Source: Candidatus Ferrigenium altingense
GTDB lineage: Bacteria > Pseudomonadota > Gammaproteobacteria > Burkholderiales > Gallionellaceae
Direction of reading: 5' to 3'
Assembly: GCA_020621985.1 (NCBI GenBank)
Contig: JAHRYS010000001.1
Span: forward strand, 248,001-312,000
Length of the DNA stretch: 64,000 nucleotides
The position numbers and the translations under genes are program-made. Below, in pieces: positions 48,389 to 63,928 of the stretch; positions within the stretch are counted from its first letter, which is position 1; every line of letters starts with the position of its first letter. The notes below the pieces were generated by a model. The model was not told where the DNA came from. It did no database searches and saw only the letters and a list, made by a program, of their open reading frames with translations.

Positions 48389-48468
48389 GTAGGATGGGTG
48401 GAGCGCAGCGATACCCATCAATTTGTTACCGTGGAACGATGGGTATCGCTGCGCTCCACCCATCCTAC
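48389..48468. repeat. 80-bp palindromic repeat, GTAGGATGGGT family, uninterrupted copy
   Basis: GTAGGATGGGTGGAGCGCAG with CGATACCCATC and its reverse complement form long inverted arms around the loop AATTTGTTACCGTGGAAC. A second copy at 62834-62969 is interrupted by a 56-57 bp structured insert. Confidence 0.88.
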
Positions 48469-61770: not shown

Positions 61771-61868
61771 GGGTGGGCTTTGCCCACCATGTCGGGCGAG
61801 CTTTGCATAGCCATTCGGCCAAGTCACCAAAATACGGTGACATAAGCCGCTGGTTAAGCCCGACCTAC
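61771..61868. repeat. Palindromic repeat interrupted by a structured module (copy A)
   Basis: A hairpin GGTGGGC-TTT-GCCCACC (61772-61788) is followed by GTCGGGC (61791-61797). After a 58-nt insert comes AGCCCGACCTAC. Without the insert the second arm would be a simple GTCGGGC...GCCCGAC hairpin. It lies between ribBA and ribH. Confidence 0.75.
61799..61856 (+). other. Structured 58-nt module, copy A
   Basis: It starts AGCTTTGCATAGCCA and ends GCTGGTTA. Predicted pairing from outside in: TAGCCA/TGGTTA, then CGGC/GCCG, then GTCACC/GGTGAC, with apical loop AAAATAC. Copy B (62857-62913, opposite strand) keeps the outer stem and the loop but has TGAC/GTCA and GGCTGTC/GACAGCC as the inner stems. 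This is compensatory change and supports a real structure. Confidence 0.65.
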
Positions 61869-61898: not shown

Positions 61899-62351
61899 AT
61901 GAAAGAAATCGAAAGAAACCTCAACGGCAGCGGCTTGCGCATCGGCATCGTGCAAAGCCGTTTCAATCCCGAAGTATGCGAGGGCCTGCTCGGCGCGTGC
62001 CGCGCGCAACTGGCGCAACAGGGTGTCGCAGAGGCCGATATTACGCTGGCCACGGTGCCGGGCGCGCTGGAGATTCCGCTGGCGCTGCTGTGCATGGCGG
62101 AAAGCGAAAAGTTTGACGCGCTGATCGCGCTGGGTGCGGTGATCCGCGGCGACACCTATCATTTCGAGGTGGTGTCGAACGAGTCGGCGCGCTGCGTGAA
62201 CGAAGTCCAACTGGCGTGCGGCGTGCCGGTCGCCAATGCGATCCTCACCACCGATAACGACGAACAGGCGATCGCGCGCATGCACACCAAGGGCGGCGAA
62301 GCCGCGCTGGTAGCCATCGAGATGGCCAACCTGCTGCGGGACTTGGCATGA
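61899..62351 (+). CDS. ribH: Lumazine synthase
   Basis: A 150-residue enzyme that condenses the RibB and RibD-pathway products to dimethylribityllumazine and assembles into pentamers or capsids. It contains [52 protein letters not shown] and [23 protein letters not shown] lies before the ATG. It overlaps nusB by 4 nt. Confidence 0.97.
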
Positions 62352-62824
62352 GCAATCCGGCCGCTGACCATGAAGTAAAAAAAGCGCCAAGCAAAAGCCC
62401 GCGCCATCGCGCGCGCGAACTGGCGTTGCAGGGCGTTTATCAATGGCGCGTCACCGCGGGCGAGGAAGCGCAAATCGAAAAGCAAATCCGGGACGAGAAG
62501 AACCTGGGCCGCTACGACAAGGAGCTGTTCTCCAAGCTGCTGCGCGGCGCGTTGAGCCAGCATGCCGACATTGAGGCGCTACTCGCGCCGCATCTCGACC
62601 GGCCGCTTGCCGAACTCAGCCCGGTGGAATTTTCCGTGCTGCTGCTGGGGGCGTTTGAATTATCGCAACACCTCGAGGTGCCCTACAAGGTCGTCATCAA
62701 CGAAGCGGTTGAGCTGGCCAAGACCTTTGGCGGTACCGACGGCCACAAATATGTCAACGGCGTGCTGGACAAGCTGGCGCCGCAGGTCCGTGCACCGGAA
62801 TTTGCGGCGCGCAACAGGGCTTAG
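62348..62824 (+). CDS. nusB: NusB, rRNA antitermination factor
   Basis: A 158-residue helical protein that binds boxA with S10. It contains [40 protein letters not shown] and [20 protein letters not shown], and ends KLAPQVR plus a short tail. The ribH-nusB coupling (ATGA) is common. The boxA sites in the rrn operon and the S10 gene of this window are its partners. Confidence 0.96.
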
Positions 62825-62833
62825 TCGCTAGTC

Positions 62834-62969
62834 GTAGGATGGGTTGAGCGCAGCGATAACCAATGACTTGGCTGTCGTATTTTGACAGCCTAGTCAGATG
62901 GCTATGCAAAGCTACCCATCAATTTGTTAACGTAAAACGATGGGTATTGCTGCGCTCAACCCATCCTAC
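62834..62969. repeat. Palindromic repeat, GTAGGATGGGT family, interrupted copy
   Basis: Arms GTAGGATGGGTTGAGCGCAG and CTGCGCTCAACCCATCCTAC match the copy at 48389-48468, including the loop AATTTGTTAACGTAAAAC. Between CAGCGAT and ACCCATC there are 56 extra bases that are absent from the other copy. It fills the nusB-thiL gap. Confidence 0.88.
62857..62913 (-). other. Structured 57-nt module, copy B
   Basis: Read on the minus strand it begins AGCTTTGCATAGCCATCTGA and ends CATTGGTTA. Stems are TAGCCA/TGGTTA, TGAC/GTCA and GGCTGTC/GACAGCC with loop AAAATAC. Copy A in the ribBA-ribH gap has the same outline with different inner stem bases. Comparison with 48389-48468 shows it was inserted into an existing repeat. 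Confidence 0.65.
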
Positions 62970-62974
62970 AAACC

Positions 62975-63928
62975 ATGTCCGAATTTGATCTGATCCGCCG
63001 CTATTTCACCCGCGCTACGCCTGGCGCGCTGCTCGGTGTGGGCGATGATGCCGCGCTGCTGCAAGTGAGCGCGGGCAATGTGCTGGCGGTGTCCAGCGAC
63101 ATGCTGGTATGCGGTACGCACTTTCTCCCCGATGCCGACCCGTTTTTGCTGGGCCACAAAACCCTCGCGGTGAACCTGTCCGACATGGCGGCGATGGGCG
63201 CCGCGCCGCGCTGGGCGGTGCTGGCCATCGCGTTGCCCGAGGCCGATGAAGCCTGGCTGGCGCAATTCAGCGCGGGCTTCTTCGCGCTGGCGCAGCAGCA
63301 TGGCGTGGAGCTGGTCGGCGGCGACACCACGCGCGGGCCGCTCAATCTGTGCGTGACGATCTTCGGCGAAGTGCCTGCGCAACAGGCGCTGCGCCGCAGC
63401 GGCGCGCAGGTTGGCGATGAAATCTGGGTGTCGGGGCGGCTGGGCGATGCGGCGCTGGCGCTGGCGCATCTGCAGGGTCGCATCGCATTGCCAGCTGCCG
63501 AACTCGCCGCCTGCCTGCCGGCCCTGCATCAGCCGCAGCCGCGCGTGGCGTTGGGGCTGGCGTTGCGCGGCATCGCCAGCAGCGCAATCGATATTTCCGA
63601 CGGCCTGCTCGCCGATCTCGGGCATATCCTGGATGCGTCCCAAGTGGGTGCGCAGCTTGATTTCGCGGCGCTGCCGGTTTCGCCAGTCTTGAATAACTAT
63701 GTATCGCGGCCGCTGGCTAGACAATGCATCTTGTCCGGCGGCGACGACTACGAGTTGTGCTTTACCGTTTCTGCCGCGCGCCATGCTGAATTATCGGCGA
63801 TTGCCGCGCGGCTCAACCTGCCGCTGACCCGTATCGGGAAAATTGTTGCGGGGCGCGGCTGTATCGTGCACGATGCGTCGGGTAATCCACTCAACGTCGA
63901 GGCTTGCGGTTATGACCACTTCCGGTGA
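62975..63928 (+). CDS. thiL: Thiamine-monophosphate kinase
   Basis: A 317-residue enzyme that phosphorylates thiamine monophosphate to the diphosphate cofactor. It starts [20 protein letters not shown] and contains [31 protein letters not shown] and [20 protein letters not shown], then [11 protein letters not shown], and [20 protein letters not shown] and [13 protein letters not shown]. The upstream repeat ends only 5 nt before its ATG, and no good ribosome binding site is visible. It overlaps pgpA by 17 nt. Confidence 0.95.

Follow-up and report, generated by a model that had tools for sequence, protein, structure and literature searches.

In the genome of Candidatus Ferrigenium altingense, an iron-oxidising bacterium of the Gallionella group, we identified a REP doublet (REPIN-like) in the gap between nusB and thiL that is interrupted by exactly 56 bp, and the interrupting sequence is a copy of a separate dispersed repeat family, here designated F2. 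We consider it probable that this doublet was entered by F2 as an independent mobile element, moving as a folded single strand in trans. The relevant features of the window, by which we mean the whole 64,000-nucleotide stretch of DNA analysed, are given below (coordinates, strand, description).

62834..62969, +, interrupted REP doublet, 136 bp, nusB/thiL gap (from sequence, arm comparison and orthologues)
62834..62856, +, left REP unit, 5' part: GTAG tag, stem and loop GAGCGCAGCGA
62857..62912, +, inserted F2 element, 56 bp, TGCAAAGC-tail subtype (a shift of 1 or 2 bases rightward scores the same)
62857..62904, +, F2 hairpin core, bulged stem-loop, 58.6 bits against model R1
62905..62912, +, F2 3' tail TGCAAAGC
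62913..62920, +, 3' arm of the interrupted left REP unit (TACCCATC)
62921..62938, +, doublet spacer
62939..62969, -, right REP unit, uninterrupted
48389..48468, +, paralogous plain REP doublet, 80 bp
62348..62824, +, nusB, flanking gene
62975..63928, +, thiL, flanking gene
61791..61868, -, second F2 copy in the window, at the apex of another REP type (GTAGGTCGGGC..CGCCCGAC) in the ribBA/ribH gap (hairpin 61808-61856, 39.7 bits)

The rib-nusB-thiL cluster harbours two nested repeats, at 61791-61868 and 62834-62969, located ~1 kb apart.

Interrupted and plain REP doublets

The doublet pairs a 31-nt REP-like unit (GTAGGATGGGT[G/T]GAGCGCAGCGATACCCATC) with an inverted counterpart across an 18-nt spacer. 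Just as a sequence-only reading of the window had claimed, the copy at 48389-48468 (+) is uninterrupted and the copy at 62834-62969 (+) possesses the same arms together with 56 additional bases. The arms of the former measure 36 nt, are 94% complementary and lie on either side of its 18-nt spacer; those of the latter measure 29 nt and are 93% complementary. Excision of these bases yields an 80-bp form, 74 bases of which are those of the plain copy. The insertion point, which had been placed to within 1-2 bases, is indeed that precise, since cut offsets 23, 24 and 25 tie and the ambiguity is confined to a TA dinucleotide. A TA target duplication, suggested by this two-base ambiguity, was dropped because it is absent from other copies of the insert.

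When folded as single-stranded DNA, the short and long copies lie 14.1 and 11.6 standard deviations below shuffled sequences, respectively, and the genome also possesses one more doublet and three single units of the outer repeat; both observations show that the repeat pair is not a product of chance. It had further been proposed that the window holds the states before and after insertion. Short and long forms are both present, but the two copies are paralogues and not two states of one site, so that the polarity of the event is unproven by this pair alone; the genuine empty state is found in related genomes, in their nusB-thiL gap.

Polarity of the insertion in related genomes

Comparison of the nusB-thiL gap across relatives, through a ThiL search and two further loci (L044 and L258), identified a plain doublet of exactly 80 bp in five genomes (G012, G005, G074, G008 and G018) and a filled doublet of exactly 136 bp in three (the window genome G000, G072 and G020). 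The left flanks of G018 (empty) and G072 (filled) are identical at 91 of 95 positions, and the doublets of these two genomes differ by one spacer base and the insert. In the ThiL tree, from which G018 is absent, the grouping of G000 with G072 was moderately supported (89/69), and the plain doublets include genomes outside the filled clade. Given five related genomes with an uninterrupted doublet, including G018 beside its filled near relative G072, we conclude that the 136-bp form is derived and the 80-bp form older, in agreement with the direction first read from the window. The opposite history, in which precise deletion from an ancestral long form gave rise to the short one, was also checked on these orthologues and appears highly improbable: a precise loss in G018 is possible as a purely formal matter, yet five genomes carry an empty doublet of exactly the same length, some of them beyond the filled clade, and the insert belongs to an independent dispersed family, which deletion fails to explain.

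The three filled doublets share 53-55 of the 56 bases of the insert, and these inserts are closer to one another than to other copies seen in G000. In G000 the insert interrupts the arm next to nusB; in G072 and G020 it interrupts the one next to thiL. All three spacers share one orientation. A plausible explanation, which we nonetheless lean slightly against, is a single insertion followed by recombination or template switching between the arms of one palindrome. The mutual closeness of the inserts is consistent with such a switch, as is the presence of the doublet spacer in both orientations among the nusB-thiL orthologues, which shows that the palindrome rearranges. Conversely, the shared spacer orientation of the three filled genomes makes a single inversion insufficient, and G018 is empty despite its closeness to G072. 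Recombination within the hairpin, originally raised as an alternative to transposition, may apply to this switch between arms. The nusB-thiL gap is itself a hotspot, with different palindromic repeats in different species across ~30 genomes of the Gallionella group (loci L209-L238).

Structure and subtypes of F2

When the window genome was queried with the long copy, over 12 matches covered the insert alone. That the insert is a repeat family with a structure, tail and target preference of its own lay beyond the reach of the sequence-only reading. In the F2 unit a 3' tail follows a bulged hairpin (TAACCA..GACT..apical stem..AGTC..TGGCTA), and from foot to apex the hairpin is composed of a TAACCA/TGGCTA foot, a 1x2 internal loop, a GACT/AGTC box, a T.T mismatch and a variable apical stem. 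Two subtypes were distinguished by their tails: subtype II, representing the majority of copies, carries the tail GTAGTTYCATCA and totals ~60 nt, and subtype I, found mostly within REPs, carries TGCAAAGC and totals 56 nt. Across 18 pairs, 66 cells were changed on both sides compared with 22 in shuffles, a count that bears mainly on the apical stem, since the foot and box are largely fixed by the search pattern; these covarying positions indicate that the apical stem is maintained via compensatory changes. Furthermore, in another bacterial family the foot reads TAAGCA/TGCTTA or CAGCCA/TGGCTG, again with compensatory substitutions and an unchanged tail. Neither F2 nor the doublet element matched Rfam at gathering or permissive thresholds.

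Direct tandems of F2 units also occur, in which the 12-nt tail GTAGTTYCATCA may be present two to three times (L061, L065, L109, L269 and L272); these tandems and repeated tails place a constraint on every insertion mechanism. Outside the window, the window genome contains two tandem F2-like hairpins just upstream of an open frame starting MSLFNIFNVAGS (L025, G000:C3:201800-204873), which we take, by eye only, to be perhaps flgC.

Distribution of F2

Based on a covariance model, F2 was identified in 72 of 76 genomes of the genus, with 36 copies in the window genome and more than 70 in several others, a lower bound set by the 72 candidates scored in each. Genomes in which F2 is nil include G022, G035, G085 and G086. 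Across the order its occurrence is patchy, with F2 in 12 of the 134 genera sampled. Named records with F2 are mostly Gallionella, Sideroxydans, Sideroxyarcus and Ferrigenium, along with a few Thiobacillus, Sulfuricella, Sulfuricaulis and Accumulibacter assemblies. A search of plasmid and phage records found no copies; one viral contig (L179) gave a match. Also identified, in two genomes of another family of the order (G163 and G274), were near-identical F2 variants inside long similar flanks (L403-L408 and L420), which suggests a larger repeat unit carrying F2.

Insertion sites and targets

For subtype II, the joined flanks of 62 of the 93 copies tested match gap-free elsewhere, the best with 98.3% identity over 60 nt, with the caveat that some of these matches (e.g. 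L087 and L159) extend into neighbouring F2 or tail repeats and are less informative. Comparison of empty and filled sites revealed neither duplication nor loss of target sequence other than a one-base ambiguity, with shared bases amounting to at most 1-2, and the claim that the window copy lacks a target duplication is upheld and extended to further members of the family. The base to the left of subtype II copies is A in 87 of 97 cases and the base to the right is G in 85 of 97. Subtype I copies, by comparison, occur in several REP types, where they occupy the apex or immediately precede the 3' arm, in a single orientation relative to the GTAG strand. F2 thus inserts without duplication or loss, mostly at A^G for subtype II and at the hairpin apex or ahead of the 3' arm of REPs for subtype I.

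The targets are themselves frequently repeats, in that 41 of 91 joined sites have at least three other occurrences, compared with 13 of 680 control positions. Their foldability shows only a slight excess (median -9.0 vs -7.7 kcal/mol in controls, p=0.03). A preference of F2 for repeats is therefore better shown than one for hairpins, and hairpin targeting per se is weakly supported for subtype II, given that foldability barely exceeds that of controls. Within one REP type, F2 copies often share the same apical stem across genomes, for example GAGCGTTGTTTGATCGC where the REP is of the GGCGGAT type and GGCAGCTTGCTGCC where it is of the GATGGGT type, and in some types the right flank of F2-bearing REPs reads TACCC as opposed to the AACCC of the plain REP. 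Crude gene calls placed 38 copies within long open frames, and orientation relative to transcription showed no bias (15 vs 19 tandem neighbours).

Search for a mobilising enzyme

No gene was found to recur beside F2 in the stretches examined around 124 copies, and homologues of three seeds for REP-associated tyrosine transposases (RAYTs) were absent from the 118 stretches examined. Among 47 Y1_Tnp loci scanned, F2 occurred nearby, and on one side only, at L206 (~0.3 kb) and L433 (~1.2 kb), with one more at 1.4 kb. Y1_Tnp is present in 35 of 41 genomes of the genus, and its correlation with F2 number is weak (rho 0.34, p=0.03). In the complete genome G063, which possesses 27 F2 copies, Y1_Tnp, IS110 transposase and reverse transcriptase were all undetected; the latter two enzymes were likewise not found in G007 and G072, with 62 and at least 73 copies, respectively.

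A RAYT was consequently rejected as the cognate enzyme of F2, because the Y1 genes inspected are not flanked by F2 and G063 carries F2 without a detected Y1. IS110 transposases and reverse transcriptases were set aside since they are missing from F2-rich genomes such as G007 and G072. A divergent RAYT in G063 is possible, because PF01797 assigns true RAYTs low scores of ~40-50 bits, and the F2 copies of this genome could be relics.

Within the genus we did identify a RAYT flanked by related inverted REPs (L203 in G026; GTAGGGTGGATAAGCG). No RAYT flanked by GATGGGT REPs, the type of the outer repeat, was seen, and none cognate to this exact REP was found in the window genome. Two RAYT-like loci were observed in that genome outside the window. 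One (L030, G000:C3:163345-166680) is a RAYT-like gene between inverted copies of GGGACAGACCACGGTT, an arrangement similar to that of previously described TIR-flanked tyrosine transposases (TIRYT; PMC6006769). The other (L031, G000:C3:657388-660639) is a second RAYT, apparently truncated or frame-broken, with GTAGGAGCGAGC REPs on both sides.

Strand bias relative to replication

In four genomes with a readable GC skew, the complement of the described strand falls on the lagging-strand template in a ratio of 47:21 among F2 copies of at least 70 bits, a threshold chosen after seeing the data. Across all copies the count was 79:56 (p=0.06), which is not significant; the replication-strand bias of the higher-scoring copies is weak.

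Comparison with known repeats and mobile elements

F2 behaves as a non-autonomous element of very small size, and its nearest analogues are the small dispersed repeats (SDRs) of cyanobacteria. The SDRs of Nostoc (Elhai et al. 2008, cited in PMC3116915) are reportedly very small (21-27 nt), non-coding and present or absent in a clean manner. Both are very small non-coding mobile repeats, F2 differing in its length of ~60 nt and in its conserved bulged hairpin and tail.

The outer 80-bp unit resembles GTAG-tagged REPs and REPINs, which are defined by a 5' GTAG, a stem-loop and inverted units with a spacer (PMC3116915; PMC3733652): it has the 5' GTAG, a stem-loop (GTAGGATGGGT..ACCCATC), an inverted pair with spacer and several copies per genome. 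F2, in contrast to GTAG and CGTC REPs, starts with TAACCA and lacks a 5' tag, carries a GTNG motif 3' of the hairpin and ends in a 3' tail; nor did the 47 Y1_Tnp loci include a RAYT with F2 on both flanks. We found no literature on Gallionella REPs. REPs nested within other palindromes have been described in Anabaena, Thermomicrobium and Halothiobacillus, where the inserted units are GTAG or CGTC REPs and, for two of these three species, no target palindrome lacking a REP was found (PMC3733652, section 7). F2 is similarly a small palindromic repeat within another palindrome, but it belongs to a different family and its empty targets are abundant.

Several insertion sequences, including ISPpu9, ISPpu10, ISPa11, ISPsy8, ISRm19 and ISRm22, also use REPs as a fixed target, some of them duplicating 2 or 6 bp of it (PMC1525189); F2 shares such targets but is only ~60 nt, possesses no transposase gene and makes no duplication. 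Members of IS200/IS605 are characterised by bulged hairpins near their ends, no target duplication and a single-strand logic (PMC6006769). A hairpin and the lack of target duplication are common to F2, which differs in having a single hairpin at its 5' end, no cognate transposase found and, in place of a fixed tetra- or pentanucleotide left target, only a fixed last base (A). For insertion biased towards the lagging-strand template, a further feature of this group, the F2 counts were 47:21 at 70 bits and above and 79:56 over all copies. Unlike a DDE-transposon MITE, F2 shows no target-site duplication, and no parent element combining the same ends with a transposase was found near the 124 copies. 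By the features tested, F2 is neither a REP nor a classical MITE, nor an attC site, the boxes of which are absent.

Proposed mechanism and alternatives

Single-strand hairpin transposition in trans represents the most likely mode of F2 movement and is our best guess, with low confidence in the class of enzyme. F2 would move as folded single-stranded DNA through the cutting and joining of one strand, by an enzyme that would be encoded elsewhere in the genome and would recognise the conserved hairpin foot and the tail. Other repeats might serve as targets because their palindromes would be exposed as single strands or hairpins, and some interrupted REPs may later have spread as composite units. 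This explanation draws on the empty and filled states at nusB-thiL, the dispersal of the family, the gap-free counterparts, the A^G bases, the repeat targets, the covariation, the single orientation and the weak strand bias. It is weakened by the lack of an enzyme found, by a strand bias that is non-significant over all copies and by a foldability barely above that of controls.

A model in which entry of F2 into REPs happened on one or a few occasions, after which RAYTs spread the resulting REP with its enlarged apical hairpin and F2 as cargo, would accommodate the apical stems often common to F2 copies of one REP type across genomes, the slightly altered right flank (TACCC) in some types and the RAYT with related inverted REPs on its flanks at L203. 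We think this unlikely, as it leaves unexplained both the A^G sites of the main subtype in unrelated repeats and the empty doublet of G018 next to the filled one of G072. Still less probable, in our view, is that F2 is a folded-strand recombination site, comparable in design to Xer-dependent sites or the attC sites of integrons, with a tyrosine recombinase, possibly the host's own, performing the insertion. Reminiscent of such sites are the two pairs of conserved boxes in the F2 hairpin, its extrahelical bases, its mismatch at the centre and its variable terminal stem, together with the single-strand polarity of F2, and a host recombinase would account for the lack of a linked gene; on the other hand, the consensus of 56 F2 copies contains neither attC box (RYYYAAC or GTTRRRY), and no dif-like sequence was seen in F2. 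Transposition of F2 as a folded single strand in trans is therefore the reading that we retain.

Significance

Small non-coding repeats such as REPs are common, yet it is rare to observe one of their sites both with and without the insertion. With one locus in empty, left-arm and right-arm states and dozens of clean junctions, the movement of a ~60-base hairpin becomes directly testable. We tentatively raise, while thinking it on the whole doubtful, the broader proposal that F2 forms a class of its own among minimal mobile DNAs: a hairpin of ~60 nt without genes and with a fixed 3' tail, parasitic on other repeats and common to several families of one order, that would move as a folded single strand into A^G sites by an enzyme that is neither a Y1/RAYT protein, an IS110 transposase nor a reverse transcriptase. 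Should the enzyme lie outside those already known, a new mode of mobilising very short DNA would follow.
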